NCBI GenBank assembly: GCA_030427985.1
Contig: JAUIBH010000006.1
Location: 1 to 64,000 of the forward strand
Length of the DNA: 64,000 nucleotides
Direction: 5' to 3'
Source of the DNA: Bacteroidia bacterium
Lineage (GTDB): Bacteria > Bacteroidota > Bacteroidia > Flavobacteriales > Flavobacteriaceae
A program made the translations under genes and the position numbers. The notes under the pieces are model-generated. The model had not been told where the DNA came from and ran no database searches. It saw only the letters and a list, made by a program, of their open reading frames with translations. Shown in pieces: positions 40,272-59,099 of the stretch (its first letter is position 1; every line of letters begins with the position of its first letter).

Positions 40272-41606
40272 TTAAGCGTTTTGTACCAAGGGCCTGAACT
40301 TTTGTCTAAATTTCCAAACGAGGGCAAAGCCACGAATCATCATCCAGACCACAAATGCAATCCAAATGGCATAAAAGCCCCAGCCCATGAACTTTCCAAA
40401 ATAGAGGACTGGAATAAAGCCTAAAAACGTGGCGGAAAGTAGCACGTTTCTTAAATATTTCATTTCACCCAGGCCTTTAAAAAGTCCATCAAAAATAAAA
40501 GCAATGGTGTTCATGGGCAGTCCGAGAATTACAATGTAAAATATCCCATAAAAGGTTTGGAGTACGACTTCTTCATTTGAAAAAAGTCGCCCAATGGGCC
40601 TATAGAAAATGAACCCTGAAAGCATCAAGATTAAACTTACCACCATTCCGTATTTGAATATGGTCTTGGCCAATTTCCACAGTCCGTTATAGTCCGAGGC
40701 ACCTAAAAGTCTACCCCCCATACTATTCCCGGCTGCAGCATAGCCATCAATAAAAAAGGCGGCAAATAACCACAGGTTCACCGCAATGGTATGCGCTCCA
40801 ATAAAACGATCTCCCAAAACAGTAGCTTCTCGAACCGCAAGCATTAAAGCGGCATTGAGGGCGGCGGTACGGACAAACAAATTCAGGCTCATCAAAATCA
40901 ATCTTTTGATTTCTTTGTTGAGCGGGAAGACCAGTTTCATGCTGATTTCTGTCTTTTTTAGGAGCAAAATCAATGCAAGAATAGCCATGATTCCCTGCGA
41001 TATGAGGCTGGCCCAAGCGGCACCTTCCAAATACATGGCAGGGATGTACCCTTCTATTCCATAAACCAAAATAAAATCGAGTAGGATGTTCAACCCTGCT
41101 CCAATCATGGCAATGACCATGGGATAAAATGTATTCTGCAAACCCCTGAAAATGCCGAAAATAGCAAAAGTGAACAGCGTCAACGGAAACCCCCAAACCC
41201 GAATGGAATAATACGAAATACAATAATCCAGTATTTTTCCCGAGGCTTCAAATAGTTTAAAGATATCTTCAACAATAAAAATAGTGGACACCAAAATGAC
41301 GACACTCAACAGAATATTAAAGAAAATGGCCTGGGCAGGGAGGTTCTTTACTTCATCCAGTTTTCCAGCACCCAGATATTGGGAAATGATCGCGGAAATG
41401 GCACTTCGGGTCTGGCCCAGCACCCAAATGAGCATGGACAAAAAAGAACCTACTATCCCGGCAGCGGCCAAAGACTCTAATCCGTCCACAGGAATATTGC
41501 CCACAATGGCCGTATCCGTAATGGAGAGCAAGGGTTCTGCAATCCCCGAAATGGTGGCGGGAATGGCAAGCCTATTGATACTTTTAAAATTTACCTGTGT
41601 GCTCAA
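40272..41606 (-). CDS. MATE family efflux transporter (DinF-like)
   Basis: 444 residues with about 12 membrane helices. The MATE N-terminus S-I-N-R-L-A-I-P-A and the L-S-I-T-D-T-A-I-V-G block with its membrane Asp are present. No ATG lies near the conserved N-terminus. The start is the TTG at 41606, with an in-frame stop four codons upstream. The family uses Na+ or H+ gradients to export cationic compounds. A broken copy of its 5' end lies at 42729-42790. Confidence 0.93.
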   Translation of the reverse strand: MSTQVNFKSINRLAIPATISGIAEPLLSITDTAIVGNIPVDGLESLAAAGIVGSFLSMLIWVLGQTRSAISAIISQYLGAGKLDEVKNLPAQAIFFNILLSVVILVSTIFIVEDIFKLFEASGKILDYCISYYSIRVWGFPLTLFTFAIFGIFRGLQNTFYPMVIAMIGAGLNILLDFILVYGIEGYIPAMYLEGAAWASLISQGIMAILALILLLKKTEISMKLVFPLNKEIKRLILMSLNLFVRTAALNAALMLAVREATVLGDRFIGAHTIAVNLWLFAAFFIDGYAAAGNSMGGRLLGASDYNGLWKLAKTIFKYGMVVSLILMLSGFIFYRPIGRLFSNEEVVLQTFYGIFYIVILGLPMNTIAFIFDGLFKGLGEMKYLRNVLLSATFLGFIPVLYFGKFMGWGFYAIWIAFVVWMMIRGFALVWKFRQKFRPLVQNA

Positions 41607-41690
41607 ATCGGCGGCAAGTTACAGCACTAATTCATAACAATGAAAAGGATGTTCACTTTGCTTGAGTAAGAGACATCGCCCAGTTTTTGA
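41583..41690. repeat. Duplicated segment, copy A (MATE start plus GNAT 3' remnant)
   Basis: Matches 42765-42878 with few differences over about 80 bp. It contains the MATE start and, on the minus strand, a decayed copy of the GNAT C-terminus (Q-K-L-G-D, then frameshifted before the bases that encode E-H-P-F-H-C-Y-E-L-V-L in the intact gene). Confidence 0.85.
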
Positions 41691-41722
41691 TTATAAATTG
41701 TTTGAGTAAGCAATTTTAACAA

Positions 41723-42709
41723 CTAAGCCCTTCCTTTGTATGAGTTTAAAACGTTATCAATTTTTTTATTGGTTTCTGGATTCACAAACATTCTGTCTTC
41801 CGACTCCTGAAACCATTCCAAAGTTTTTTTGATACCCGTTGCGAAAGGAATAGTTGCTTTAAACTCTGGCACAAAAGTTTTGATTTTGGTGTTATCGAAA
41901 ATGACACTTTCGGTTTTATCACCCAATAAGTCCCCTGTAAAACTAGGCTCAAGATTACAAATAAAATCGGAAGTGATATGCACTGCATTCAGTTCGCATC
42001 CTAAACTATTGGCCAAAATTTTATAAATGGAATTCCAGGTTAAAACTTCATCAGACGTGATATGAAACGTATGCCCTATAGCTTGGGTAAGTCCCAACAA
42101 GCCAACTAATCCCACAGCAAAATCATCAGCATGTGTTGTAACCCAAACCGAAGTGCCATCACCATGAACAATAATTTCCTGGCCTTTTAAAATTCGGTCT
42201 GCCGTGGTATATTCTTTCACCCCGCCAATGGCAATAGGAATGATAGTATCATACGTAAATGAAGGCCTTACAATGGTAAATGGAAAATCCTGCTCACGAT
42301 AGGCATTCATCAACAATTCTTCACACTTAATTTTATTATTGGAGTACTCCCAAACGTTATTGCAAACGGGTGTAGACTCGGTAATAATGGGATAGCTTAA
42401 GGGTGTTTGGTAGCAAGAAGCCGAGCTAATAAAGATGTATTGTTTTGTTTTTCCCTTAAAAAGCGCAATATCCCTTTGCATTTCTTCTGGTGTGAACACA
42501 ATCCAATTGACCACCGCATCCCATGTGTGTTTACTCAATTCTGATAATGTTTCTGGCTTGTTGATGTCTCCAATAATGGTTTTTACCTTAGGAATTTCAA
42601 CACCAGTTAAACCCCTGTTTAAGTGGTATAAATCTATCCCTTTTTCAATGGCCCAACGGCTACAGGGTGTGCTAATGTTTCCTGTTCCTCCAATAAATAA
42701 TACTTTCAT
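41723..42709 (-). CDS. NAD-dependent epimerase/dehydratase (extended SDR)
   Basis: 328 residues. N-terminal G-G-T-G-N-I-S-T nucleotide loop (variant of G-x-x-G-x-x-G), S-S-A-S-C-Y-Q-T and a Y-S-N-N-K-I-K-C-E segment with the catalytic Tyr-x3-Lys. It resembles the isoflavone-reductase/CSP41-like extended SDRs. The substrate is unknown. The gene sits between two halves of a duplicated GNAT-MATE border, so it was probably inserted. Confidence 0.85.
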   Translation of the reverse strand: MKVLFIGGTGNISTPCSRWAIEKGIDLYHLNRGLTGVEIPKVKTIIGDINKPETLSELSKHTWDAVVNWIVFTPEEMQRDIALFKGKTKQYIFISSASCYQTPLSYPIITESTPVCNNVWEYSNNKIKCEELLMNAYREQDFPFTIVRPSFTYDTIIPIAIGGVKEYTTADRILKGQEIIVHGDGTSVWVTTHADDFAVGLVGLLGLTQAIGHTFHITSDEVLTWNSIYKILANSLGCELNAVHITSDFICNLEPSFTGDLLGDKTESVIFDNTKIKTFVPEFKATIPFATGIKKTLEWFQESEDRMFVNPETNKKIDNVLNSYKGRA

Positions 42710-42728
42710 AATGTTTAACTTTTATAAT

Positions 42729-42790
42729 GAAACACCCCAAACCCGAATGGAATACTGTGAAATGTTTTTAAAATTTACCTGCGTGCTCAA
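42729..42790 (-). pseudogene. Internally deleted remnant of a MATE gene
   Basis: On the minus strand, codons for L-S-T-Q-V-N-F-K (the MATE N-terminus) are joined to N-I-S-Q-Y-S-I-R-V-W-G, which matches residues 130-139 of the intact MATE protein. About 120 codons are missing. The frame stops about 15 nt before the SDR start codon. Confidence 0.8.
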
Positions 42791-42878
42791 ATCGACAGTA
42801 AGTTACAGCACTAATTCATAACAATGAAAAGGATGTTCACTTTGTTTGGGAAAGAAGATATCTCCTAATTTTTGATAG
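42765..42878. repeat. Duplicated segment, copy B (intact GNAT 3' end plus MATE start remnant)
   Basis: Partner of 41583-41690. Here the GNAT 3' end is intact and the MATE start is the remnant, the reverse of copy A. Confidence 0.85.
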
Positions 42879-43303
42879 CCACGCTGCTCATAGAAACGTT
42901 GGTTTCTTTGGTTTTGGGAGAAGGTGTCCAGCCTAACCGATGCAAAACCATGTTCTTTAGAATAGTTTTCGGCAAAATCCATTAGTTGTTGTGCCAATCC
43001 TTTTCCCTGATAGTCGGGATGAACGGAAAGCCGATGGATATAGGTACTGTTTCCATTGGAGGTCAACCATTCAATGGGGGCATACTCCTCATCCATATAG
43101 GTTGAAATGACGATGGTGCCCAAAATAGCTTCGTTTTCTTCCATCACATAAAGTTCATTACGCTCCACATCGCGAATAAAAGCAGCTTCGGAAGGGTAGT
43201 GCTCGTTCCACTGAAAAATACCGTTTTCCTGCATTTTTGTAGCGCAGGCCTTGGTGATGTTCAGGATATCTGTTATTTCAGATATCTTTGCTTGCCTGAT
43301 CAT
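42803..43303 (-). CDS. GNAT family N-acetyltransferase
   Basis: 166 residues with the acetyl-CoA loop V-H-P-D-Y-Q-G-K-G-L-A-Q-Q-L (R/Q-x-x-G-x-G/A) and the terminal strand R-F-Y-E-Q-R-G-Y-Q-K-L-G. The substrate is unknown. Originally it was likely followed directly by the MATE gene; a duplication and the SDR gene now separate them. Confidence 0.9.
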   Translation of the reverse strand: MIRQAKISEITDILNITKACATKMQENGIFQWNEHYPSEAAFIRDVERNELYVMEENEAILGTIVISTYMDEEYAPIEWLTSNGNSTYIHRLSVHPDYQGKGLAQQLMDFAENYSKEHGFASVRLDTFSQNQRNQRFYEQRGYQKLGDIFFPKQSEHPFHCYELVL

Positions 43304-44211: not shown

Positions 44212-44285
44212 GGGGGATTAGCTCAGTTGGCTAGAGCGCTTGCCTGGCAGGCAAGAGGCCACCGGTTCGAATCCGGTATTCTCCA
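44212..44285 (+). tRNA. tRNA-Ala (anticodon GGC), occupied by the islet
   Basis: Full cloverleaf: acceptor GGGGGAT / ATTCTCC, D arm GCTC/GAGC, anticodon arm CTTGC-CTGGCAG-GCAAG, T arm ACCGG-TTCGAAT-CCGGT, discriminator A. The G3-U70 pair that defines alanine identity is present. The 3' flank reads CAG rather than CCA, whereas the stranded copy at 53613-53655 is followed by CA and so encodes ACCA. The islet's integration replaced the native 3' end. Confidence 0.96.
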
Positions 44286-44286
44286 C
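44244..44286 (+). repeat. attL: 43-bp direct repeat of tRNA-Ala 3' half
   Basis: Identical over 43 bp to 53613-53655. It begins at the first base of the anticodon loop and ends one base after the discriminator A. Adjacent bases differ on both sides (C versus T before, A versus C after). Confidence 0.95.
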
Positions 44287-44298
44287 AGTAACAGTAAG

Positions 44299-44331
44299 GC
44301 TTCAAGAGTTTTTAACTTTTGGAGCTTTTTT
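44299..44331 (+). terminator. Element-supplied terminator for tRNA-Ala
   Basis: A 12-bp stem GCTTCAAGAGTT / AACTTTTGGAGC (all paired, two G-T) with a TTT loop, followed by six T. It belongs to the islet and replaces the native terminator left at 53665-53691. Confidence 0.88.
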
Positions 44332-44332
44332 C

Positions 44333-44356
44333 ATTTGCACGCAATTTGCACGCAAA
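44333..44356. repeat. Arm-type repeat, left copy (24 bp)
   Basis: ATTTGCACGCA followed by ATTTGCACGCAAA: two tandem copies of TTTGCACGCAA. The same 24 bp occur at 53486-53509. It lies 46 bp inside attL. Confidence 0.85.
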
Positions 44357-44985
44357 AGAGGTTTTAAATTAAGCTCTGTATTATTTGATTCAAATTGGTT
44401 TATTTTAATATTTCTTCATCGTTTAATTGAACTTTATTTTGACTCAGTTTTTATTGCCTACCATTTTTTAATTTTCACCTGATGCTCCGTCAAACAAGTT
44501 TTGAAACTTGGAAGTAGTTTTTTTCTGCATTTCAATTGGCTACTCGCTAATTTTTAAGTATTCCTCCTGAGTAAATTCGGATTGTACTTTTTCAGTCGAC
44601 CATATACAGTATTCAAAATTCAATTCCCGATAGTACCTTCATATTTTTTGAGTCTTACACATGTTAAATTAACAGTTATGAATATATAAATTAAACTGTT
44701 CAACATATGGCAAAAACAACCCATATTTTTATTTCGAAGTATGATTCAAATCTTTTATACAAAGATTATTGAGCGGAATGGTTCAACCGAGTATGGGTGG
44801 AGGGTCCCAGCTATTAAATAACAAGGATATCCCTACGTTGATCTATCGAAGAGGTTAGGCCTACATCATACAAACAATACGTTGAACTAGAGATTGATAG
44901 GTTTGAGTGCAGTTACCAAACGCGATAATAAAACAATATTTATCACGTTATATTGTAAGTATATTCTCACTATTATTGTGTTCGT
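44357..44985. other. Gene-free left end of islet
   Basis: About 630 bp, AT-rich, with no convincing gene. Short frames around 44707-44890 (from ATG 44707, stopped after 21 codons) look like decayed coding sequence but match nothing recognisable. The promoter of the FIST gene must lie near the right end, but no clear consensus was found. Confidence 0.5.
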
Positions 44986-46113
44986 ATGAAAATTTATCAA
45001 TACAAGGTCCTGACCCATGAAAGCATTTCCAAAATTGAAATAGATTTTGTGCCCAATGTTTTTTTTCTGTTTATTTCGCCTTCTTTTTCAAATCCTGAAA
45101 AATTTGTCAAATCACTTAAGAAAAAATATCCAGAAGCTACCATCATAGGATGCTCCACTGCAGGAGAAATAATGGGTGATCAGGTGCTGGACGACACCAT
45201 AGTTTTGACTGCTGTCCAATTTGAAAAGACCAAAATCAAGAGTATCAATGTAGATTTGATTTCAAATGCCTTGGACAGTTACAAAACCGGTGCCAGTATC
45301 AGCGCACAACTCAAAGGGGACGATCTCCGACATATTTTTGTGCTGAGCGATGGTCTTATCGTGAATGGCGCAGAGCTGGTCAAAGGCCTGCAATCAACCG
45401 TAGAAAAGGATGTCAGTATTACCGGAGGCTTGGCGGGTGATGGCACCAATTTTGAAAATACCTTCGTAGTCCACGATGGGGAAATCAATTCCAATAAAAT
45501 AGTGGCGCTCGGTCTTTACGGAAAAGACCTGAAAATAGGTTTCGGATCGAAAGGTGGCTGGGACAGTTTTGGAATTGAGCGATTGGTAACCAATTCGAAG
45601 GACAATGTTCTGTATGAATTGGATGGAAAACCGGCCCTAGAACTCTATAAATCATTTTTGGGTGACAAGGCGAAAGATCTTCCAGGCTCCGGATTGTTGT
45701 TTCCACTGAGTATGCGGAACGAAGACAACCAAACACCGGTGGTACGCACTATTTTGGCCATAGATGAAGAAAAACAATCTTTGACCTTTGCGGGTAATAT
45801 TCCTGAAGGAGCCTATGTCCGCTTGATGAAGGCCAATATCGATCGTATTATTGATGGAGCCGAACAGTCGGCCATGGTCAGCAAAGAAGCCGGCCATGAC
45901 TCTCACCAATTGGCCTTTCTCATCAGCTGCGTAGGCAGGCGATTGGTAATGAAACAATTAGTGGAAGAGGAGGTTGAGGCCGTGAACGAGGTCTTTGAAA
46001 ACAAGATTTTTACCACAGGATTCTATTCTTATGGTGAGATTGCCCCATTTGATAAATTTTCGCCCTGCTCTTTACACAATCAAACTATGACCATTACCAC
46101 TCTAGCAGAATAA
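44986..46113 (+). CDS. FIST domain signal-sensing protein
   Basis: 375 residues covering FIST-N (about 20-220, with I-I-G-C-S-T-A-G-E-I and G-G-L-A-G-D-G) and FIST-C (about 225-365). No signal peptide or membrane helix, so it is cytoplasmic. FIST domains are proposed to bind small ligands such as amino acids. The hybrid kinase gene starts 4 nt after its stop, so FIST probably acts as a separate sensor subunit for that kinase. No DNA-binding output gene is adjacent. Confidence 0.92.
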   Translation: MKIYQYKVLTHESISKIEIDFVPNVFFLFISPSFSNPEKFVKSLKKKYPEATIIGCSTAGEIMGDQVLDDTIVLTAVQFEKTKIKSINVDLISNALDSYKTGASISAQLKGDDLRHIFVLSDGLIVNGAELVKGLQSTVEKDVSITGGLAGDGTNFENTFVVHDGEINSNKIVALGLYGKDLKIGFGSKGGWDSFGIERLVTNSKDNVLYELDGKPALELYKSFLGDKAKDLPGSGLLFPLSMRNEDNQTPVVRTILAIDEEKQSLTFAGNIPEGAYVRLMKANIDRIIDGAEQSAMVSKEAGHDSHQLAFLISCVGRRLVMKQLVEEEVEAVNEVFENKIFTTGFYSYGEIAPFDKFSPCSLHNQTMTITTLAE

Positions 46114-46117
46114 ATTT

Positions 46118-47887
46118 ATGCACAGGTTATTAAAAAGACAACTTAAAAAAGCTGATTTCAATCAGCAGGTCCTTGATCAAATACACTTGTTCTTAGATCA
46201 AGTGAATGATGCCTACAATGCATTTGACAATGATTTGTGCCATGTTGAGACCGTCTTGGAGAAAAGCTCCCAGGAACTTTATCAGGCCAATCAACGATTA
46301 AAAAACAATGTTGAATCGGTTACATCACAGTTGTCCAAAGTGGCCAACAATATAAAAGAAGTCATCTTTGAGATTGATTTGGATGGCAATTGGTTCTATC
46401 TAAACAGTGCATGGGAGACCCTTACTGGGCATAAGGTTAAGGACACCCTTGGAAAACCATATCATACATTCTTGGTGGACCAAGAAGGCGAGTCAGTTCA
46501 AAAATTGATAGACTTCAACAGTCAAAAATTCAGTTCAAGGAACAAAAAATTCCAGTCACTCACCAAAGACAAGAAAACCATATGGGTCGATTTTTCCGTA
46601 AAGCGCATCAAATCTAAAGACGGTGCAATTGAAGGGTATATAGGTACCATTGTGGACATTACCCACTTGAAAGAAGTAGAGGTTGCCCTTATCGATGCCA
46701 AGGAAAAGGCTACCTCCGCCAACAAAGCAAAGGACGATTTTCTGTCCACCATGTCGCATGAAATACGCACCCCGCTCAATGCTGTGGTTGGTATCAGCCA
46801 TCTATTGTTGATGGAAGATCCTAAAAAGGAACAACTGGAGAACCTTAATGCCCTAAAGTTTTCATCTGAGCATCTTTTGGAACTTGTAAGTGACATCTTG
46901 GATTTCAACAAAATTACCTCAGGATCAATGGAATTGGAAGATGCCGATTTTGATTTGGAAAACATGTTGAATGGCATTCAGAGCATTTTCAGCAATAAAT
47001 CTAGGGAGAAAAACATTCGTTTTATCATAAAAAAGGACAATCTTTTGCCCAAAATAGTCAAAGGGGATAATACTCGATTGAAACAGATTTTGGCCAACTT
47101 GATCAACAATGCAATTAAGTTTACTGAAAAGGGTAAAGTAGTGCTCGATGTTGAAATGATCAGTGAAAGTGAAGAGGCCCATATCATCAATTTTGAGATA
47201 ACGGATACTGGAATTGGTATCCCCGAGGACAAAATAGACAAAATCTTCAACTCCTTTTCACAAGCCGGTTCTGATACTACGCGTAAATATGGAGGTACAG
47301 GTCTTGGGCTGGCCATTTGCAAAAAACTATTGGAAATCATGGATAGTGAGCTTAAGGTCATAAGTACATTGGGTAGGGGATCTACGTTCAGCTTTTCATT
47401 ACAGTTGGAGAAAAGTGAAATACACGAGAGTGAAGTGGATAACCTTAATAACTATCATAGATTTGAACCGCTTACCGAAGATTTACAGAGTGTCAAAGTA
47501 CTGGTTGCCGAAGACAACAAACTTAACCGACTGGTCATCAAAAAGTTCTTGACCAACTGGAATATTGATTTTGATATTGCCTATGATGGGGAAATGGCCC
47601 TTGAAAAAGCGGAGAACAATTGCTATGGCCTGATCTTGATGGATTTGCAAATGCCTAAGATGAATGGTTTTGATGCCTCCTTGGCCATCAGGAACACCGA
47701 CAACCCCTTGAACAAAGTTGTTCCCATTTATGCACTTACGGCTTCCACAGGAATCGATATCAATCATAAGATAGAAGAGTATGGCATGAACGGTATCATC
47801 TGTAAACCTTTTGACCCAGAAGAACTTTATTCCACTTTGGTTAAGATCATCAGTAAAACAAAGGTCAATCAGAAAGTCACTGCTTAG
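46118..47887 (+). CDS. Soluble PAS hybrid histidine kinase with receiver domain
   Basis: 589 residues: N-terminal coiled coil (1-75), PAS/PAC (about 75-185), HisKA with His 214 in M-S-H-E-I-R-T-P-L-N, HATPase with N-box L-I-N-N-A-I-K-F-T (328-336) and G-box G-G-T-G-L-G-L (392-398), then a receiver domain with Asp 509 (I-L-M-D-L-Q-M-P). No membrane helix. The receiver is the C-terminal domain, so output needs an Hpt or another receiver elsewhere, or protein contact. Coupled to FIST (4-nt gap). Confidence 0.95.
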   Translation: MHRLLKRQLKKADFNQQVLDQIHLFLDQVNDAYNAFDNDLCHVETVLEKSSQELYQANQRLKNNVESVTSQLSKVANNIKEVIFEIDLDGNWFYLNSAWETLTGHKVKDTLGKPYHTFLVDQEGESVQKLIDFNSQKFSSRNKKFQSLTKDKKTIWVDFSVKRIKSKDGAIEGYIGTIVDITHLKEVEVALIDAKEKATSANKAKDDFLSTMSHEIRTPLNAVVGISHLLLMEDPKKEQLENLNALKFSSEHLLELVSDILDFNKITSGSMELEDADFDLENMLNGIQSIFSNKSREKNIRFIIKKDNLLPKIVKGDNTRLKQILANLINNAIKFTEKGKVVLDVEMISESEEAHIINFEITDTGIGIPEDKIDKIFNSFSQAGSDTTRKYGGTGLGLAICKKLLEIMDSELKVISTLGRGSTFSFSLQLEKSEIHESEVDNLNNYHRFEPLTEDLQSVKVLVAEDNKLNRLVIKKFLTNWNIDFDIAYDGEMALEKAENNCYGLILMDLQMPKMNGFDASLAIRNTDNPLNKVVPIYALTASTGIDINHKIEEYGMNGIICKPFDPEELYSTLVKIISKTKVNQKVTA

Positions 47888-48291
47888 GACATATTACATC
47901 AAAAATCTTGAACTGCAAAGGGAGTAAGTAACCTGCAAATAGAAGAATTGCTTTTACTTTGTTGAGACGGATACCGAAGACCATTAAAAACCGATTATTT
48001 GAACCATATAATCCTACTTTAAAAGAGTTCGGCTTTAAGTGCAAAAGGCCTACGTAGCATACCACATTAAACAGAAAAAATTGAGCATAATGTAATCACG
48101 TATAAGTAACTGAACAATATTTATCCATATCAAAATATAAAATTGTTTTTAATCGTTTATTTGAACTTTGATAACGGTCACGTATAAACGCAGTGCGGGT
48201 TTTATGCAACTGCTTTTTAGTTGAAAAGACACTCACGGTTCAAGTTGTACCTGAACCGCTATTGCGCTTATACAATGCTACCACACGCTTT
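47888..48291. other. Intergenic region between FIST-kinase pair and sigma operon
   Basis: 404 bp without a gene. It separates convergent units. A hairpin CGGTTCA...TGAACCG at 48236-48258 lies downstream of the leftward sigma operon and may end it. The 48181-48220 stretch (CGCAGTGCGGG...) has a higher GC content than its surroundings, with no identified role. Confidence 0.5.
48236..48258 (-). terminator. Hairpin downstream of the serine hydrolase-sigma-membrane operon
   Basis: CGGTTCA / TGAACCG, 7-bp perfect stem with a 9-nt loop. There is no clean T run on the minus strand, so terminator function is tentative. Confidence 0.35.
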
Positions 48292-48846
48292 TTATATAGT
48301 GGAATCCTCGAATTCCTTGATGGTAGTTGTAATTACATTAATTCGCCTAATCCAATTTCTGTTAGATAAATATATTAAAAACAATAGGGCTAAAATCATT
48401 CCAACAAGTAAGAAGTATTTCTCTCGTGTAAAATCAATTGATGATGCAAAAAACGAGATGAATGCTGAACCAAATAAAAATGCAGTAAGCAGAATTGAAA
48501 GAGCCACCTGTTTTAATTTAGTCTGAAATCGATTTAAAGACTTTTTAAGGTTGCCATCGTTTACAGGATTTTGCAACACATACCATCCAACAAAACGAGC
48601 AATAATATATCCGATTGTACTTATTATTAATAAAGCATTTGCCCATAGCGGTTTGGTAGCACCGTCGAACCCAGTATAGTAAACTGCCAAAAAAACCGAT
48701 AGCAAAGTAGCCTCGACTAAAAATTTAATCTTAATTTCCTTGACTTTTGTATGACTTTTGATTTTGGTCATCATTAATAATTCAGTTTTGCTCTTTTCAA
48801 TTCCTTCTGAGTTTTTCCACGTTGATTTTATGTTTTCAATTTCCAT
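48292..48846 (-). CDS. Four-helix membrane protein, candidate anti-sigma factor
   Basis: 184 residues. A soluble basic N-terminal segment (1-42) is followed by two helices (about 45-60 and 70-90), a cytoplasmic loop, and two more helices (about 115-135 and 142-160). It lies 5 nt after the ECF sigma gene. Membrane proteins in this position often sequester the sigma factor, and the N-terminal segment would be the contact region. No recognised anti-sigma domain is visible, so the role is inference. Confidence 0.75.
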   Translation of the reverse strand: MEIENIKSTWKNSEGIEKSKTELLMMTKIKSHTKVKEIKIKFLVEATLLSVFLAVYYTGFDGATKPLWANALLIISTIGYIIARFVGWYVLQNPVNDGNLKKSLNRFQTKLKQVALSILLTAFLFGSAFISFFASSIDFTREKYFLLVGMILALLFLIYLSNRNWIRRINVITTTIKEFEDSTI

Positions 48847-48851
48847 TATGT

Positions 48852-49325
48852 CTATTTTTTTAATGTCATTTTCAATTTTTCTTTAATCCTGCTGACTTTA
48901 ACGCCTACATAATTTTCGGTAATACCTATCATTTCAGCAATTTCCTTGTATGGGTAATCTTCTAAATACAGGGCAATTATTGCTCTATCTGCCTTCGTCA
49001 AAGTCCTTATTGCCTCAAATAGGCGTTCCTCATTTTCTGAGGTTGCGTGTGCATTATTTTGTTCATTGTTATTGGGAAGGTTTTCCTTAAATTCAAGATT
49101 GATTTTGTTCTTTCTGAAGATGGCTATTCCAGTATTAAGGGCAATTCTATACATCCAAGTACTTATTGTCGATTCATCTCGGAATTTCGGAAATGCTTTC
49201 CACAATTGAAGCACTATTTCCTGGAATAGGTCCTCTTGGTCTTCTTTGGTATCTCTATACATCTTGCAAACCTTGTATACGATGCCTTGATGATCATCTA
49301 TGATTTTCAGAAAAGCCTTTTCCAT
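48852..49325 (-). CDS. ECF-type RNA polymerase sigma factor
   Basis: 157 residues with region 2 (V-Y-K-V-C-K-M-Y-R-D and D-L-F-Q-E-I-V-L-Q-L-W-K) and region 4 helix-turn-helix (Y-K-E-I-A-E-M-I-G-I-T-E-N-Y-V-G-V-K-V). Regions 1.1 and 3 are absent, as in ECF sigmas. The ATG directly abuts the stop of the serine hydrolase gene (TAAATG), so translation is likely coupled. Confidence 0.95.
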   Translation of the reverse strand: MEKAFLKIIDDHQGIVYKVCKMYRDTKEDQEDLFQEIVLQLWKAFPKFRDESTISTWMYRIALNTGIAIFRKNKINLEFKENLPNNNEQNNAHATSENEERLFEAIRTLTKADRAIIALYLEDYPYKEIAEMIGITENYVGVKVSRIKEKLKMTLKK

Positions 49326-50708
49326 TTATTTGTCTGCTTTTCTAAATTGAAATGATTTACCCATTCCTTCGGCCAATAAGCCTGTAACGAAATTGGACTC
49401 ATTCAATTTAAAAGTAAATTCAATCTCCACTTTTTTACCGAAAAACTGGTGATTGTCTTTCGGATAAATCTCAAAAGGCGGATTTCCTCCAAGTTTGGCA
49501 AAGAGGCTGTTCTGTACTTTAATTATTGAAAGTACCATTTGATTTTCATCTGCAATGAATTTGCCACTATAAATTCCTATATTCTCAGGCTTTACTGAAA
49601 CCTCTTCTATAGTTGGCACCTGAAATGGTTTGCCAAATACAATTTTCTCAACGTCTGATGCAATATTGCTAATTGGTAATGTTGAGACATTGCTTAAGAT
49701 GATGATGCTTATTTGACTATCTGGATACATCGAAGTAAAAGTCGAATAGCCCCAAGTCCCACCACCGTGATAATACTTTGTAGGCGCATCGAAATTCAGA
49801 TACCAGCCATACCCATAGCCGTCATCATTTTTCTGCATCGAGTGTTCTGATTTTTCAAATACAATATTCTGAGTTTTTTGAGTCAAAAGCTTATCAGAAC
49901 CAAAGCTGTTGTTCCATTTCAATAAATCGGTTGAAGTTGAATACATATCACCAGCACCTTTGAGCATTGAGTAGTTTCTGAAAGGTGCGACCACCAAACT
50001 ATCGTCATTAATTAAATGGTAACCTGAAGTTATGTTGGGTATTATCTTTAGGTTATCATCAATACCAGTTTCTGTCATTTGAAGCTTGCTCAGGATTTTA
50101 TCCTGTAAAATATCTTCAAAGTCACTTTTGTAGATACTTTCTAGAATTGATGCCAATAGATAGTAGCCTAAACTTGAGTATTTCATCTTCGAATCTGGTT
50201 CAAATAATAGGTCAAGGCTATTAATCTCTTCTATTGCCTGTTCGGGCGTTATATGAAGTTTTGATTTAAACTGCCAATAGTCTTTAATACCTTCATTGTG
50301 AGGTAGACCAGAAGTGTGCTTGAGCAATTGTAAAATGGTAATGTCTTTGAACTTGGGCGACAACTCTATCAAATAGTTACTCGCTCTATCATAGACGTTT
50401 AGTTTTTGTTCTTGGTGAGCGATGGCAATAAGAATTCCCGTAAAAGTTTTAGTAATTGAAGCTATTCGATATTTGGCTCCATTTTCCAATGGTAAATCAT
50501 TTTCAAACGAGGTCATTCCAACTGCTTTTTGAAAGACAATATCTTTTCCTTTAGATATGAGTATCTCGCCGTTAAAGCTCTTCTTTTTGTGAATTACATC
50601 GAGATAGGTCTCTAGGGTGCTCAAGTTAAATTCTGAAGATTGGGCTTGCGACTTCTCTCCCAGATAGAATATTAATATGAGTAAGATTAATGATTTTGAA
50701 GTTTTCAT
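49326..50708 (-). CDS. Serine hydrolase, class C beta-lactamase family
   Basis: 460 residues with a Sec signal (about 1-22). The nucleophile is in S-I-T-K (S-x-x-K), the second motif is Y-S-S-L (Y-x-S/N), and the third is H-G-G-G (H/K-x-G). The C-terminal 100 residues are an extra beta domain. Such proteins include D-Ala-D-Ala carboxypeptidases, esterases and beta-lactamases, and the exact reaction cannot be told. Being first in an operon with a sigma factor and a membrane protein suggests a cell-envelope response. Confidence 0.92.
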   Translation of the reverse strand: MKTSKSLILLILIFYLGEKSQAQSSEFNLSTLETYLDVIHKKKSFNGEILISKGKDIVFQKAVGMTSFENDLPLENGAKYRIASITKTFTGILIAIAHQEQKLNVYDRASNYLIELSPKFKDITILQLLKHTSGLPHNEGIKDYWQFKSKLHITPEQAIEEINSLDLLFEPDSKMKYSSLGYYLLASILESIYKSDFEDILQDKILSKLQMTETGIDDNLKIIPNITSGYHLINDDSLVVAPFRNYSMLKGAGDMYSTSTDLLKWNNSFGSDKLLTQKTQNIVFEKSEHSMQKNDDGYGYGWYLNFDAPTKYYHGGGTWGYSTFTSMYPDSQISIIILSNVSTLPISNIASDVEKIVFGKPFQVPTIEEVSVKPENIGIYSGKFIADENQMVLSIIKVQNSLFAKLGGNPPFEIYPKDNHQFFGKKVEIEFTFKLNESNFVTGLLAEGMGKSFQFRKADK

Positions 50709-50874
50709 AAGACAACGATTTAAGTTCTATTTGCCTTATAAGTTGTCTGAAATGCTCAAAATCTTACAAACTGCTAATTTTTTCGAAGGTGTCTTTAAAT
50801 GTCTGGTAACTTTTCTATATATGCATAAAATACACCTATATAATCCCAAATTGGAATGAAATCGAAATGTTGAT

Positions 50875-51484
50875 TTATCTTTTATATGATCTCAACTTTC
50901 CTGAAAGCCCCCTATGACGTAAATACTTGTAATAGGTGGCCCTGGAAATATTCAATCGTTCACATATTTCTGTAACGGTCAACATCCCGTCATTGAAATA
51001 CTCCTCACAAAGTACAGTTTTTTGTTAGTTTTTCTTACTTAATCCCTTTCGGTGCCCCTAATATCTTTCCCCTTCGTCTTGCTGATTCCAATCCTGCTTT
51101 GGTCCGTTCAATGATGATATCCCGTTCCAATTGTGCCAAGGCAGCAAATATGTTGATGATGGACACCGAATGGGAAGACTTCTCTGTGGTATCTATGAAA
51201 GGCTCGGTAATACTCCTGAAACGAACTCCCTTTTTCTTTAGCCTTGTCATAAGATTGGTAAAATGAAACAGGCTCCTTGCCATCCGATCAAGTTTCCAGA
51301 CCACAATGGTATCTCCGTGCCTTACATATTTTAACAGTTTGCTCAAGCTCTTCCGCACTTCCTTGGTGCTCGATACTTTATCCGGGTAAATGTTCTTTTG
51401 TGGAATCCCTTCTTTGAGCAGTGCATCCAATTGAAGGGCCAAACTTTGTTCCATGGTACTCACCCGTGCATATCCAAAAACCAT
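50875..51484 (-). pseudogene. Broken serine resolvase/invertase gene
   Basis: The catalytic domain is intact (V-F-G-Y-A-R-V-S-T with the nucleophile Ser, R-M-A-R-S-L in the dimer region). Reading breaks at G-A-P-K-G, where a one-base frameshift leads to a stop at 51035. In the other frame K-G-L-S-K-K-N is followed by a second stop (51025-51027). The C-terminal helix-turn-helix V-T-E-I-C-E-R-L-N-I-S-R-A-T-Y-Y-K-Y-L then reads on to 50875. The protein can no longer bind its site as one chain. Confidence 0.85.
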
Positions 51485-52248
51485 AACCTGAAAGTTTAAA
51501 TAAACGGTAGAATGTAAACTATTTATTTAGTACGGGGAAATGAACTTTAACAAACCAGTGGACTTGTATAACAATGAAAGTTCAATAAAACGGTGCATTA
51601 AAAACGCGGTCGTGAAATAGAAATCGAAACAGGGGCGAACGCAACGCAGTGGAGTGCTGCAAGCCCCAAATCTTGCCAAACTAACCTTACTGAGCGAGGC
51701 AATTTTATCTATTAATCCGATATACTCTTCTCATCATTCGAAGTGATCCAATGGACTGTTGGCATCAATTTTATATCGTTCCAATCTCCATTCCGTTATT
51801 TTAAGCTTTAGATTGCTTTTCCATAGGCCCAATTTTGTTTTTTCGTCAAATTGCGTCAATTTTTTCGTCAAAAATTTCCAGTGTTTATTGGGCCTCCGAG
51901 GGCATTTACTGTAGATTTCGAAAAAGTCTACTGTAGCCCCTGATTTTGTACAGTATTTCAAAATCTATTCAATTAACTGGTTTTCAACTTGTTGAAGACT
52001 CGAAAACAACCGTGATGGCGCAATTTGCGCATCACCCTCTTGCTATTCAAATTCGGCCTACTCCGTATCCCGAGATTTGCCCACTACCGGAACATCTCAA
52101 TGCAGTAAAGAAAAATGCAGTAAAGAGAATAGGTTGTGCGTCCTATTCCAATTTTACTTTACGCTTATCTTCCCGAATGCTATAAAATTGGAACAGGATC
52201 CATGCGCAAAGTTTTGGGGTAAGTATTTGGGACCAAGCAAAGTTAAGC
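51485..52248. other. Region between resolvase remnant and integrase
   Basis: 764 bp with no well-supported gene. A 75-residue frame on the minus strand (51734-51961, basic, M-K-Y-C-T-K-S) and a 79-residue frame on the plus strand (51946-52185) are present, but neither resembles a known family and they overlap. It may include a former resolution site upstream of the resolvase. Confidence 0.5.
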
Positions 52249-53466
52249 CTATAGTTTAACCAACTTCTGATTATAACTGTCTAATATATCATTCGGAAGG
52301 GACTTAAGATATATTTGAGTGGTTGATAGGCGATTATGGCCAAGCATTGAAGAAATAGCTTGTAAGGGAACGTCCTGCAGCATAGCTTGGGTTGCAAAAC
52401 TATGACGAGACACATAGGAAGTCAATCGTTGTTCTATCTTACATTTTTTAGCAATTTCTTTTAGCCCTTTATTATACCTCTTTCGTGACCACAAGACGTC
52501 TTTATATTGAAGTTCGAATGTGGCTCTTTTAATAATTGGAAATATAAACTCTGACTTCTCTTTATCCCTAAGGTAGAATGATAGTATCTCCTTTAATTGG
52601 GGTGTAATATTAATATCATACGGCTTTGATGTTTTTTTTCTTTGGAATTTAATTCGGTTATCAATGATATTTTGAACTTTTAAAAAAGCCAAGTCCATAA
52701 AGGAAATACCATAAAGCATGTAGGAGGCAAGGAAGTAATTCCTATAGTGAAACAGTCTATCCGTTTCATCCAGTTCTAAAAGCATTATTGATTTGATACT
52801 GTTGATGTCAAGAGCTCTCTTTTCTGTAGGAGTGGTTTTGATCTTATAATGTTTAAATGGGTAAGCATCCCTAGAAACAATATCCAACTTAATAGCCTTG
52901 TTAAAAACTGCTTTGATGGTTCTCATATAAGTCGACAGGCTGTTAACAGAATTACCTTTGGAAAAGTGCCAGTTCTCAAATCTTTTGAGAAAATCATAAT
53001 TGATTTCGTTGAATTTGATATCATTTCCATCAGCGAAATTTTCCAGCACCTTAAATACCGCGTAATATGTGTTTGCATTACCAAATCGTTCAGCTGCTTT
53101 TAACTCATAGACAATATTCTCGGTAAACTGAAAAAATGAATCCAATGACGCAGTTTTTACAATTTTCTTCTTAAGCTGCAAAATGGATAAAAAGTTGAGC
53201 TCGTTCTTTTCGTTTAGCTCATTAATTATGTCGACAGCTCTGGTCTTTTCTTTTAAGAGTTGATTGTTGAGTTTGCTAACTGATGAAGTGCCCTTGAATG
53301 CTCTTTTGACTTTCTCGTTTTTATTATCCCAATATTCCTTTTTTATAGATTGACCTAAGCTTATGGAAGTTGTTTTTCGAAAATGAGTCAGTCGTAAAAT
53401 AATGGGATAGGAGGAATCCTTTTTCATCCTGCGAGTATCTAAAGAAAGTTTTATATTGGTATTCAT
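52249..53466 (-). CDS. Tyrosine site-specific integrase, IntDOT-like
   Basis: 405 residues: N-terminal arm-binding region (1-55), SAM-like core-binding domain (about 108-205), catalytic domain (215-405). The first catalytic Arg is replaced by Ser 255 (Y-G-I-S-F-M-D-L), as in IntDOT of CTnDOT. Arg 354 (V-S-R-H-S-F-A-T), His 377 (L-G-H) and nucleophile Tyr 386 (T-Q-I-Y-L-K) are present; Tyr 351 sits where many family members have His. ATG 53466 is chosen because the longer frame reads through the 24-bp arm repeat. The gene lies 147 bp from attR. Confidence 0.94.
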   Translation of the reverse strand: MNTNIKLSLDTRRMKKDSSYPIILRLTHFRKTTSISLGQSIKKEYWDNKNEKVKRAFKGTSSVSKLNNQLLKEKTRAVDIINELNEKNELNFLSILQLKKKIVKTASLDSFFQFTENIVYELKAAERFGNANTYYAVFKVLENFADGNDIKFNEINYDFLKRFENWHFSKGNSVNSLSTYMRTIKAVFNKAIKLDIVSRDAYPFKHYKIKTTPTEKRALDINSIKSIMLLELDETDRLFHYRNYFLASYMLYGISFMDLAFLKVQNIIDNRIKFQRKKTSKPYDINITPQLKEILSFYLRDKEKSEFIFPIIKRATFELQYKDVLWSRKRYNKGLKEIAKKCKIEQRLTSYVSRHSFATQAMLQDVPLQAISSMLGHNRLSTTQIYLKSLPNDILDSYNQKLVKL

Positions 53467-53485
53467 CCTAATCAAAGGTAAAAAG

Positions 53486-53509
53486 ATTTGCACGCAATTT
53501 GCACGCAAA
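53486..53509. repeat. Arm-type repeat, right copy (24 bp), in the integrase promoter region
   Basis: Identical to 44333-44356 and in the same orientation. It lies 20 nt upstream of the integrase ATG, so integrase binding would also be expected to repress its own gene. Confidence 0.85.
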
Positions 53510-53612
53510 TAGTTGATTTTTTTAATCTTAATTGAATACAAAATTATTTAAATATCTGATAAACAAATTATTATGTATTTGTTTAATTCGAATTGATGTG
53601 AGAATCCTCTTT

Positions 53613-53655
53613 CTGGCAGGCAAGAGGCCACCGGTTCGAATCCGGTATTCTCCAC
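53613..53655 (+). repeat. attR: stranded 3' half of the original tRNA-Ala
   Basis: 43 bp identical to 44244-44286. The next bases complete ACCA, so this copy carries the original CCA-encoding end. The sequence upstream (TCCTCTTT) is unrelated to tRNA, confirming that it is a fragment. Confidence 0.95.
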
Positions 53656-54908: not shown

Positions 54909-57641
54909 TCAGACCGCTTTTTCAGTAAGGGGCAAGGAAGGGTAACAGATTTCCAAGATGAGCTGTTTTAAGTGGGTCTCAAAAGTAGACAATACCTCAG
55001 CATCAATGAGGGTATTTTTTTTGTCTTGTGAAAAGGAAAACAAGCCGTATCCCAAATTTTTAAAGGAATAGATTCCGGCCAAAAGGGAATTGGTGCCATG
55101 CTTTTTAGAATACAGTAGAGCATAGCACAACAACTGAAAGGCTTTGCTTTTGTCATAATCCGTAATGAGCATCCCCCAATCGGTCAGCGTAACGTTTTTG
55201 GGCTCCACCTTTCCGGTTTTATAATCAATGATTCGTGTGATGCCATCAAACTCATCCACACGGTCTAGGGTTCCTTTGAGTTTTACCGGAAAATCCAACT
55301 CGGGAATTTGGAGTTGGACATCATATTTTTCTTCCAAGGCCACTAATTTGATGGTATGCCGTTGGAGCTGTTTTAGTTCGATATCGATAAAGTTCTCCAA
55401 ATACTTACAAATAACATTATAGACCAGCAGGAACTTTCCTTTGGAAATATCCACACCGAATAAGTTTTTTTGAAAATGGCTTTCTACAACGCTGGGGATT
55501 TTAGCCGTTAGGGCCCCAACACTTTCTTTAGAAAGTAGTGTGCCAAGAAGAGGGGTATAGAGCTCCTCCAAACTATCATGCACTATGGTACCAAAGGTAT
55601 TGGCGGCAATGTTTTCCTCAACTTCATCTAAATCATTGATTTTTAGGATGTTTCTGGTGTAGAAGTCAATAGGGTTTCGCACATAATTGGTGAGCGAGGT
55701 AGGCGAAAATCCACTATTGGCAAAGGCAATGATGTCATCCTGTAATAATGCACTTTTTTCTATTTCCAAAGGTTGGGCGGGTGTAATGTTGGCCTGTGGA
55801 GCAGCAATGGTGTGTGTTACGAATGGGGCCATGTTTTCATCCGTCAATAATTGGGAGATGAGCCTGCTTTTTTCGCCGCCCTCCAATACATCGGGCTCGG
55901 TATTATAGAGAATGTACACATTTTTAGCTCGCTGTATCAGCCTGTAAAAGTGGTACACATAAATGGCGTCTTTTTCTTTGTAGGTGGGCAGACCGTAATC
56001 CCGTTTTACATCAAAAGGGATAAAGGAATTGTTCATTTTTCCTGATGGAAGGATACCCTCGTTCACCGAAGTAATGATGACCGTTTCAAAATCGAGGTTC
56101 CTACTTTCCAACATTCCCATGATTTGAAGCCCAGTTAACGGCTCCCCAATGAAGTCCAAGGTTTCCATGGAGGCCAATTGTTTGAACAAATTTTTGATTG
56201 ATTTCAATTCACTGATGAAATCCACATTCGCCAAATATTCCTTCAATTGGTTGAAGAGGATGTAAAAACGATAGACCTGTTCCAGTTCCATAGCATTTTT
56301 TTCTTGCTGAAATATGCTTTTCAATTGATCAATCAGCAGAAGGCAATTGCCGATCCATACCAAAACAGAAATACGACTTTTGGGAAAAATAATTTCCAAC
56401 ACCTCATTTGCCTCGTCATATTTTTCAAGAACATCATTGTTTATATACAACCTGTTCTGTTCTTTAATCTCCTTGGCCAGAAGTGGGGCAAAATCAACCT
56501 TACTTGATTCCGAAAGAGTTAAGCAATATGGATTTGAGGTAAGCTCCAACACATATTTGTAGAACCACCCTCTTTCAGATGTATTGGTATTGAGTTCCAA
56601 GAGCGCCAGGAAAAAGGAATACAAAACGGTTTTGTTCAAAGGTAGCCCCATGGTGATGTTCACCGTATTGATAGATGGGGGTACGGCCTGCAACATTGGG
56701 GAGAGCAAGGACTCATCTGCCAGAACAACGGCCGTTTTTGAAAAATCAATCGCAGCATTGGAATTCAGCTCATGCAATAACTGTCCTACATATTTGGTCT
56801 GTGAGATACTTTTGGGAACCCCAGTAATTGAAATTTTTTTTGGTGATAAAAAATTACTTTGTGGGTTTAGCTGAGCCTTGTTCTTATAATAGGGCCAGTT
56901 GTATTGGTAGTTTCTGATAAAAAGACCGGCATCATGAACAGGGTCATTAAGAAAATAGGAGTCAATGTCCCAATAGACTTGTCCGTTGCCCAGTTCCAAA
57001 AAATGTTGGACAATTTTTGACTCGGCTGAGGTCAGTGCATTAAACCCGACAAAAATAATCGGGGTTGTTTTGTGGTTTTTGGAATAATCATCCAAACGGG
57101 AAACCGCAATCTTTGCCATTAGACCTTGATAACCTCTTTTCTGTTCCTTCAAAACGGTAGTGAAAGCATTGTAAATAGTCTCCAATTTGTTCCAAAGCTG
57201 AAGATAGTTTTGAATCAGCTCTGTTTTGTCCTTCTGTACGGACCAGTGGTTGATTTCCTTTATGGCAGAAAGATAATTAAGTAGATCATGGGCCGGAATT
57301 AGGTATCCGTCCATCTCATTAAAGTCCTGTAGAAGGGTTTGTCCCCATTTTAAGAAGGAGGGAAAATCATCGGGCTCGTCTATTTGGGCATTTTTGTATA
57401 CATCATAAAGCTCTAACAGCAAATCTAGATTGGAGGTTTGCTCCATACCAGAGATATCTGCAATGAAATCTTGAATGGAAAGTATTTTGGGGCTGAATAT
57501 ATTTTGGGCGAGGGTGTTGGCCAGATGTTTTTTTAGAAAAGTGCCCGAACGTTTACTTGGAAGGATAAAGGTACATTCGGAGAAATCCGTGCCTTTGTTT
57601 TGGAGGTCGTTGAGTACATGTTCCAGAAAGCTTTGATGCAT
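54909..57641 (-). CDS. AddB-like PD-(D/E)XK nuclease of recombination repair
   Basis: 910 residues. The N-terminal portion is a helicase-like fold without a clear Walker A (I-L-P-S-K-R-S-G-T-F). A PD-(D/E)XK nuclease is near the C-terminus (I-I-D-Y-K-T-G-K about residue 820), with E-L-Y-T-P-L-L upstream. It is the likely partner of the AddA-like helicase at 60393-63512, processing double-strand breaks for RecA. The two genes are separated by ompA-type and kbl genes. Confidence 0.88.
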   Translation of the reverse strand: MHQSFLEHVLNDLQNKGTDFSECTFILPSKRSGTFLKKHLANTLAQNIFSPKILSIQDFIADISGMEQTSNLDLLLELYDVYKNAQIDEPDDFPSFLKWGQTLLQDFNEMDGYLIPAHDLLNYLSAIKEINHWSVQKDKTELIQNYLQLWNKLETIYNAFTTVLKEQKRGYQGLMAKIAVSRLDDYSKNHKTTPIIFVGFNALTSAESKIVQHFLELGNGQVYWDIDSYFLNDPVHDAGLFIRNYQYNWPYYKNKAQLNPQSNFLSPKKISITGVPKSISQTKYVGQLLHELNSNAAIDFSKTAVVLADESLLSPMLQAVPPSINTVNITMGLPLNKTVLYSFFLALLELNTNTSERGWFYKYVLELTSNPYCLTLSESSKVDFAPLLAKEIKEQNRLYINNDVLEKYDEANEVLEIIFPKSRISVLVWIGNCLLLIDQLKSIFQQEKNAMELEQVYRFYILFNQLKEYLANVDFISELKSIKNLFKQLASMETLDFIGEPLTGLQIMGMLESRNLDFETVIITSVNEGILPSGKMNNSFIPFDVKRDYGLPTYKEKDAIYVYHFYRLIQRAKNVYILYNTEPDVLEGGEKSRLISQLLTDENMAPFVTHTIAAPQANITPAQPLEIEKSALLQDDIIAFANSGFSPTSLTNYVRNPIDFYTRNILKINDLDEVEENIAANTFGTIVHDSLEELYTPLLGTLLSKESVGALTAKIPSVVESHFQKNLFGVDISKGKFLLVYNVICKYLENFIDIELKQLQRHTIKLVALEEKYDVQLQIPELDFPVKLKGTLDRVDEFDGITRIIDYKTGKVEPKNVTLTDWGMLITDYDKSKAFQLLCYALLYSKKHGTNSLLAGIYSFKNLGYGLFSFSQDKKNTLIDAEVLSTFETHLKQLILEICYPSLPLTEKAV

Positions 57642-57706: not shown

Positions 57707-59065
57707 TTATTTTACCAAGTTGATTTCAACTCGTCTGTTCTGAGCTCTACCAGCTCTTGTATTGTTAGTGGCGATTGGCTTAGCCTCACCATATCCAATA
57801 GCTGTTAGTCTGCTAGAAGAAATTCCTTTGTCAATCAAGAAAGATCTTACAGAGTTTGCTCTTTCTTCAGAAAGTTTTTGGTTCAATGACTCGCTACCTA
57901 CGCTGTCAGTGTGACCTTCTACGGTAAACTTAGCGTTAGGATACTCGTTCAAGATTTGGATGATGTCAACCATTACAGAAGTAGACTCTGCTTTGATAGA
58001 AGACTTACCAGTATCGAACAAGATAGTTCTAGCGTAGTCGTTCAATTGTTTTTGAACTTCTTCAGTTACTTCTGGGCAACCGTTGTTAGCTACAGTACCG
58101 GCAACATCTGGACATTGATCGTCTTTGTCAAGAACACCGTCACCATCAGTATCAGGCCATGGGCATCCGTTGTTTTCAGAAGGACCAGCCTCATTTGGAC
58201 AGTCATCATCTTTATCAGCAACACCGTCACCATCAGCATCAGGACAACCAGCTAGAGCAGGAAGACCAGGAGTACTAGGACAAGCATCATCTTTGTCGGC
58301 AACACCGTCACCGTCAGAATCAGGACATCCGTTCATTTCTTTTGGACCAGCTTCGTTAGGACAAGCATCTTTAGAATCTTCGATACCGTCACCGTCAGAA
58401 TCAGGACAACCGTTGAAAGCTTCCAAACCAGCAACTTCTGGACAAGCATCGTCTTTGTCATAGATACCATCACCATCAGTGTCAGTACCACCAAATTTAA
58501 TGCTAAGACCAGCCAAGTGTTGGAAATGCTTAACTAGGTAGTCTTCGAATGCGTGCTTGTACTGGGTCTGTAAAGTAAGACCGATGTTTTCAGAAAACCA
58601 GATGTTAAGACCAACACCTCCGTTTACTGTACCAGCACCAATTTCATCAATCCATGTGTAACCACCACCAATCTCAGCAAATGGGTCGATAGTTGTGTTT
58701 TTTAGGAAGTTGTACTTAATGGTACCATCAACAGCGTAGTGAGAAAGATCGTCTACGGAGAATTCTCCGATTTTCTCAATTCTGTTCAAGGAACCACGGG
58801 CACCAATGGAAAATCCGTCACCAATGTACTTGGAAACGCCTACATAGGAAACAGAAGGCAAGATGTTCCAGTGGTCACTCACATTAAAGTACTCATCGAA
58901 AAGCGTAGTACTAGAAAATGGGTTATTCTCGTCATTGGTTGGATATGCATCAATTGCATTCACCCCAAAACTAATCTGCCATGGATTATTCTCGTCTTGC
59001 GCTTGTATGCTGTTGATCCCTACAAATACAAGGGCAACAACCAATAATTTGCTAAGATGTTTCAT
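57707..59065 (-). CDS. OmpA family outer membrane protein with thrombospondin type-3 repeats
   Basis: 452 residues: Sec signal (ending I-Q-A-Q), an N-terminal eight-strand-like beta-barrel (about 25-190), five calcium-binding D-x-D-G-D-G-type TSP3 repeats (about 193-330), and an OmpA peptidoglycan-binding domain with V-E-G-H-T-D-S-V-G and N-R-R-V-E-I. It anchors the outer membrane to the cell wall. A perfect promoter lies 35-64 nt upstream, consistent with high expression. The start at 59065 is preferred to TTG 59071. Confidence 0.96.
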
Positions 59066-59099
59066 GCTCAAAATTTTAAGTTTAAGTGTTTATCAGCAG

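Follow-up and report, generated by a model that had tools for sequence, protein, structure and literature searches.

A gene of the short-chain dehydrogenase/reductase (SDR) family, foreign as judged by its sequence, has been added between the GNAT acetyltransferase gene and the MATE transporter gene of a Flavobacteriaceae genome, and it is bordered on both sides by duplicate fragments of the GNAT-MATE junction. The locus lies in a 64,000-nucleotide (nt) stretch of assembly GCA_030427985.1 (contig JAUIBH010000006.1, positions 1 to 64,000 of the forward strand; hereafter the window), whose source was read as a marine bacterium. According to our analysis, the SDR gene was probably captured, with duplication of the junction, in one Muricauda lineage and then spread between species by homologous recombination, a history to which we give a probability of about 0.6. 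A first-pass annotation of this one genome had proposed duplication of GNAT-MATE with the SDR gene captured between the copies, and it was largely right. What the comparison with other genomes adds is that the site is filled in two other species, that the insert probably starts with the end of a uxaA-type gene, and that between carriers the fourfold sites of the SDR gene have diverged two to three times less than those of its neighbours.

The filled junction and its duplication scar

All genes of the locus are on the minus strand (window coordinates). Read in that direction, GNAT (43303-42803) is followed by a 93-nt leader (42802-42710) and SDR (42709-41723), and then, after a short decayed stretch, by MATE (41606-40272). 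The features, all on the minus strand, are as follows:

42803..43303, minus: GNAT acetyltransferase gene, whole, with its 3' end belonging to the left repeat copy (open reading frame (ORF); Pfam Acetyltransf_1, 3.8e-21; orthologues in 68 of 71 genus genomes)
42766..42876, minus: left repeat copy, with GNAT end, stop, spacer and first MATE codons (repeat comparison, blastn)
42729..42763, minus: copy of MATE codons 130-139 behind the MATE-start copy, codons 10-129 being deleted internally (blastn; same fusion in G038 and G044)
42710..42733, minus: probable left end of the foreign fragment, with the tail of a uxaA-type gene (GVSL stop) and the spacer before SDR (18 of 24 nt equal to the Marixanthotalea marina boundary)
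41723..42709, minus: captured SDR gene, an extended SDR of 328 amino acids with epimerase/dehydratase fold (ORF; Pfam Epimerase; structure model)
41692..41722, minus: 31 nt behind the SDR stop that do not align with the GNAT-MATE repeat and are either foreign or decayed (alignments)
41582..41691, minus: right repeat copy, with decayed GNAT' end, intact final 30 nt of GNAT, spacer and resident MATE start (blastn, native-row comparison)
40272..41606, minus: MATE transporter gene, whole, start codon TTG (TIGR00797, 1.2e-68; orthologues in 70 of 71 genus genomes)
41186..41219, minus: MATE codons 130-139, resident counterpart of the fused leader piece (blastn)

The TTG start codon of MATE is shared by all 26 native rows compared.

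We searched 71 genomes of the genus for each of the three genes. MATE was found in 70 (E<=1e-100), GNAT in 68 (E<=1e-20) and a close SDR in three, which are the window genome, G038 and G044; the last is Muricauda sp. CP2A, as the first 8605 bases of its contig are identical to NZ_LXTT01000101.1. Only remote SDR matches (25-33% identity) were obtained from nine other genomes and from a second place in the window genome. Between aligned ends, GNAT and MATE are 14-23 nt apart in 65 of the 68 genomes having both genes (in G037, where MATE is split by a stop, the first piece was used) and 1192, 1199 and 1309 nt apart in the three SDR carriers. The close relative G107, with MATE 94% and GNAT 89% identical to those of the window genome, has an empty site. 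Since 65 of 68 genomes lack the SDR gene and the insert is confined to three, the insertion is derived and the empty GNAT-MATE pair is the common state. Two resident genes of the sample are interrupted, each being a pseudogene or an assembly error: GNAT of G049 (G049:C2:539640-540137) by one in-frame TGA, and the split MATE of G037 (G037:C201:1499-2807).

The first-pass annotation had named a filled site in all relatives as the sign of an ancestral GNAT-SDR-MATE order, and the genus presents a different picture. An ancestral order with loss of the SDR gene from most relatives would account for its presence in three species. It is, however, at odds with the uniform spacing of the 65 empty sites, with flanks that are duplicate fragments and not clean gene borders, with an SDR gene less diverged among carriers than its neighbours, and with a nearest relative outside the genus that is 91% identical, far above the level of RecJ. 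We therefore reject this explanation as hardly credible.

The borders of the SDR gene are indeed reciprocal copies of the GNAT-MATE junction. In the window genome, blastn aligns 42766-42876 with 41582-41691 at 89.2% over 111 columns (E 1e-36), and the ungapped core of this direct repeat (41582-41671 and 42766-42855) is identical at 83 of 90 positions. The repeat holds the last ~22 GNAT codons (decayed on the MATE side), the stop, the spacer and the first MATE codons. A second repeat pairs 42729-42763 with 41186-41219, that is, MATE codons 130-139 (88.6% over 35 columns, E 3.5e-6, blastn), and in the leader the MATE-start copy is fused directly to it. The decayed GNAT end on one side and the fused MATE start on the other, both of which had been described earlier, are thus borne out by blastn. 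The identical fusion is present in G038 and G044 and is therefore not a chance match; a chance origin of the first repeat is likewise rejected, given its E value and the same scar in two further genomes. A conserved leader peptide is rejected: the leader ORF of 22 codons can be read through in the window genome, but G038 and G044 carry stops within it.

The fusion removes 120 codons (360 nt) of MATE in frame, and its joint falls at a few bases common to codons 9-10 and 129-130 (AG[C/T]-AT[T/C] vs TGT-ATT). In the simple reading of these sequences, which we prefer, the left MATE' is a once longer copy with a 360-nt internal deletion between short repeats. The target segment stands on both sides of the insert in all carriers (84.6% over 195 nt in G044, 89.5% over 105 nt in G038). 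The right copy of G044 keeps GNAT residues 117-166, repeated over those 195 nt and interrupted by a stop, and the right copies of the window genome and G038 keep only residues 145-166. Taken with MATE codon 139 on the left, the GNAT remnant of G044 documents a duplication from GNAT codon ~117 to MATE codon 139, and therefore of ~580 nt or more. A weaker alignment with gaps takes the right GNAT' copy back to codon ~103. The longer GNAT' of G044 and the deletion in MATE' agree with the earlier proposal of a duplication followed by loss. In two parts that proposal goes beyond what the sequences document, namely in a doubling of whole genes and in a duplication preceding the capture, as opposed to one event.

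Both resident genes remain whole at the filled site, the left copy providing the GNAT end and the right copy the MATE upstream region and start. All six copies agree completely over the final 30 nt of GNAT. We posit that the right GNAT' is free to decay except for these final 30 nt, which probably serve in the upstream region of MATE. The GNAT-end motif GAATTRGTGCTGTAACTT occurs in 52 of the 71 genus genomes, once in 49 of them and twice only in the three SDR carriers.

Origin and nature of the SDR gene

The closest relative of the SDR gene found outside the genus is a gene of Marixanthotalea marina, to which it is 91% identical in amino acids, while RecJ of the same species is 70% identical to that of the window genome. 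This difference implies that the SDR gene has moved between lineages. In line with its presence in three of 71 genus genomes, the earlier claim of a gene captured between GNAT and MATE holds, and by these sequence comparisons the gene is foreign in the window genome. Its G+C content of 38.1% is the fifth lowest among the 50 window ORFs. In M. marina the SDR gene immediately follows a gene with galactarate/altronate dehydratase domains, which in turn comes after a tagaturonate reductase gene and an MFS transporter gene. We call the gene with the dehydratase domains uxaA-type, a name inferred from these domains and from its neighbour, since none of the specific NCBIfam models reached the cut-off.

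Of the 24 nt 5' of the SDR gene, 18, 18 and 19 are the same as at the M. marina boundary in the window genome, G038 and G044, respectively, a match reached by 8, 3 and 1 of 200,000 shuffles. Ten other SDR upstream regions match this boundary at 4-13 positions. On the basis of this match, the end of the leader (GVSL stop) is probably the tail of a uxaA-type gene and not of MATE. At the left joint, the MATE copy and the probable uxaA-type tail share the short similarity GGGG.TTTC; the right joint is decayed, and no homologous anchor was identified in the foreign fragment.

The wider SDR family is scattered over Bacteroidota, Planctomycetota, Spirochaetota, Ignavibacteriota, Pseudomonadota and Armatimonadota, and relatives (E<=1e-40; 51-74% identity) are present in six of 394 other genomes of the order. 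A plasmid collection held no close SDR donor, the best match being 49.5% identical. Derivation from a uxaA locus of the window genome itself found no support, as close SDRs are restricted to the three carriers. Genes of uxaA type were detected in 17 of the 71 genus genomes (E<=1e-50), and no SDR match was seen in the 12 uxaA-type loci of the genus examined with about 1.5 kb of flank each.

The SDR protein matches the Epimerase profile PF01370 (8.4e-11), and its AlphaFold model is confident (mean predicted local distance difference test score 91.6) with a Rossmann-type fold. Among the best 50 Protein Data Bank matches of the model, sugar epimerases and dehydratases prevail at 15-19% identity; a search of solved structures by sequence gave only weak matches, and no NCBIfam equivalog that would mark the protein as a known enzyme of uronate catabolism reached its cut-off. 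Extended SDRs have the catalytic motif YxxxK and the nucleotide-binding motif GxxGxxG. The former is represented by Y122 and K126, which all 21 sequences compared have in common, and the latter is modified (GGTGNIS in the window), with serine in the last position in all 21. Among carriers, dN/dS is 0.065-0.078, and the gene is therefore under purifying selection. The protein is probably a sugar epimerase, dehydrogenase or dehydratase, as far as model and motifs can tell. As a lead only, its neighbours may suggest sugar-acid metabolism: uxaA- and uxaB-type genes adjoin it in M. marina, and a galactonate dehydratase gene adjoins the 49.5% identical relative on a Deinococcus plasmid. The relatives in Lutibacter and Labilibaculum have other neighbours, unlike this context.

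Divergence of the insert between the carriers

The SDR gene differs far less between carriers than its surroundings. At fourfold sites the three carrier pairs show 17/117, 20/114 and 23/114 differences in SDR (0.15-0.20), against 175/443, 191/428 and 194/429 in the four flanking genes USP, GNAT, MATE and ECH combined (0.40-0.45; p 1.8e-7, 7.7e-8 and 6.3e-7). Synonymous divergence (dS) is 0.25-0.27 for SDR and 0.62-1.18 for the flanking genes in the same pairs. In comparison with G038, the proportion of synonymous differences (pS) of SDR, 0.226, is the lowest of 43 window genes (median 0.486), and it is also the lowest of ten window genes compared with G044, where the comparison covered only ~116 kb. 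This set comprises tblastn matches with at least 70% protein coverage and at least 60% identity (43 of the 50 window ORFs for G038, 42 for G107 and 10 for G044).

Codon usage of the SDR gene is ordinary (effective number of codons (Nc) 52.0, rank 19 of 50 window ORFs), and codon bias as a cause of its low silent divergence was not seen. A useful control is the OmpA-type gene at 57710-59071, in which bias is strong (Nc 38.7) and silent divergence is about as low as in SDR against three relatives. The untranslated-looking leader shows 10, 9 and 10 differences at 93 sites in the three carrier pairs, and the left spacer is nearly alike in all three. Given the low fourfold divergence of SDR without codon bias, we conclude that the insert, together with its scar, probably passed between species after these had split.

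The same scar at the same place in all three carriers could also stem from a single insertion with duplication in their common ancestor, followed by vertical descent. The SDR gene would then be slow at silent sites, and G107 would either stand outside the carriers or have lost the insert by recombination between the repeats. The trees bear on this point in both directions; that of the four close species is nearly a star. They were built from eight genes, the eight of ten window genes found in G044, with SDR and 54912-57641 left out. The protein tree places G107 outside the three carriers, weakly (63/56), while the DNA tree places it inside (91/93 and 87/91, not strong). It would further suit vertical descent that the low divergence starts and stops at the insert edges. 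Against it, in each pair of carriers the flanking genes are more than twice as diverged as SDR at fourfold sites (p<1e-6), SDR is a gene without codon bias, and the leader, which carries stops in G038 and G044, is also little diverged. We regard vertical descent as possible, though distinctly less probable than spread between species; the arrangement probably did not simply form in the carriers' common ancestor and descend.

The edges of the insert offer further clues. In the right spacer and MATE start, the window genome equals G044 and is one base off the empty site of G107 (26 native rows were used for the spacer comparison). MATE of the window genome and of G038 is a mosaic, with runs of 92, 83 and 68 identical nt amid ordinary divergence (permutation p 0.0025), which we read as a sign of short exchanges between the two species. 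The SDR tree hints at a pairing of G038 with G044, with 14 shared derived sites versus 5 and 6 for the other pairings, and this is not significant. As the low divergence ends near the insert edges, the crossovers would have to fall in the conserved GNAT tail or in the MATE start, which the identity of the final 30 GNAT nt in all six copies makes possible. In 25 native GNAT genes (those of full length among 27 native loci), third-position conservation is higher in the last 12 codons than elsewhere (0.89 vs 0.71, p 0.002), and the first codons are conserved even more. The third-position conservation of the GNAT tail, which overlaps the MATE start region, hints at a start-region signal inside the GNAT coding sequence.

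Several points weigh against capture with later spread. A single clade of carriers is not rejected on the eight-gene DNA tree (approximately unbiased (AU) test, p 0.10), and the SDR tree is without significant conflict with a pairing of the window genome and G038 (AU p 0.17). Synonymous rates vary by gene, and OmpA, second lowest in the comparison with G038, is nearly as low as SDR (pS 0.245), with codon bias as the visible cause. The right spacer of G038 is 5/39 from the nearest native row, as distant as the left copies, and the spacer argument therefore concerns two of three carriers. Recombination would normally bring some flank along, and no clear tract of low divergence extends into GNAT or MATE, except at most at the MATE start between the window genome and G044. 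Finally, the uxaA origin of the left end is drawn from one relative, M. marina.

Some of these features may fit a more speculative variant, in which the insert behaves as a cassette without integrase. RecA recombination between the GNAT-tail copies would free a circle (GNAT tail - MATE' - SDR), which would enter the GNAT-MATE junction of another species by one crossover, and with every entry the same repeats would form anew. Entry of this kind would account for the shared left spacer alongside flanking genes of the resident type, and for a right spacer that is clearly resident in two of the three carriers. We consider such a cycle rather doubtful.

Mode of entry and comparison with known systems

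In the history that we favour, capture in one lineage with later spread between species, a foreign fragment of ~1 kb, probably comprising the last codons of a uxaA-type gene and the SDR gene, would have become part of the GNAT-MATE pair in one Muricauda lineage. Along with this, ~580 nt or more of the junction, from GNAT codon ~117 or earlier to MATE codon 139, would have been directly duplicated. The fragment may have entered at the joint of a fresh tandem duplication, or as part of a molecule already bearing a piece of the junction; the sequence fits both routes. The redundant parts would then have decayed, the left MATE' losing 360 nt and the right GNAT' undergoing deletions of its own. Later, without an integrase, homologous recombination in the conserved GNAT tail or in the MATE start would have carried the insert and its scar into the remaining carrier species. 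The repeats would also permit clean loss of the insert.

Placement of the SDR gene by an integrase, a transposon or an integron cassette would draw on the integrase-bearing island that lies 1.5 kb away at a tRNA-Ala gene in the window genome. This island is absent, however, from the compared stretches of G038, G044 and G107, and yet G038 and G044 carry the SDR gene. The insert has room for the SDR gene alone, and no inverted repeat pairs its ends, attC-like folds not having been searched for. Target duplications of transposons are far shorter than 580 nt, and the duplication found here far exceeds them. We judge this route very improbable.

The island itself (44244-53655) is likely tRNA-integrated, being bounded by a 43-nt perfect direct repeat of the 3' part of the tRNA-Ala gene (44244-44286 and 53613-53655). 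A tyrosine integrase gene (52252-53541) lies beside the far repeat, and a resolvase gene occupies 51038-51484. Other genes of the island code for an extracytoplasmic function (ECF)-type sigma factor and a beta-lactamase-family (PF00144) protein, and a FIST-domain protein is encoded together with a hybrid histidine kinase.

The case is one of gene acquisition without integrase, of a known kind, and not a new system. In homology-facilitated illegitimate recombination, reportedly described by de Vries and Wackernagel in 2002 and by Prudhomme et al. in 2002, foreign DNA is trapped during transformation. As there, foreign DNA lacking an integrase is joined to a resident locus with short similarities at the joint. 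The differences are that no homologous anchor was found in the foreign fragment and that at least 580 nt of the target are duplicated.

Transformation of Streptococcus pneumoniae produces merodiploids with tandem duplications, mostly of about 100-900 kb, fresh and experimental, and a small duplication of 3,276 bp without flanking repeats is also described there (PMC3784515). There, too, the duplicated segment preserves an intact copy of a gene that incoming DNA would break (PMC3784515). The documented duplication at the SDR locus is below 1 kb, old and decayed. The type VI secretion effector-immunity arrays of Vibrio cholerae resemble our locus in that a gene is added in a conserved cluster, displaced 3' ends are left behind it and the foreign modules are of different origins. 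There, toxin and immunity modules replace older ones (PMC5361080), while here one metabolic gene is added and both neighbours remain whole. Exchange of accessory genes at flanking core genes shares with our case the same site, the lack of a visible mobile element and exchange via conserved neighbours. It is within species and statistical (PMC5635113), unlike the present case between species with neighbouring genes about 83-89% identical, where internal repeats might also allow entry by a single crossover. A literature search of partial coverage (titles and the starts of abstracts) found no paper on this locus.

The record of this locus is unusually complete: it comprises filled and empty sites, a duplication kept in part, the context from which the gene probably came, and a divergence of that gene below that of its neighbours. 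It shows how one foreign gene can be added to a conserved gene pair while both neighbours stay intact and no integrase is visible, since a spare junction comes with the duplication. If spread between species did follow, the scar also makes the gene portable by ordinary recombination, since each empty site has homology to the repeats. Similar scars can be looked for wherever a genome has sequenced relatives.

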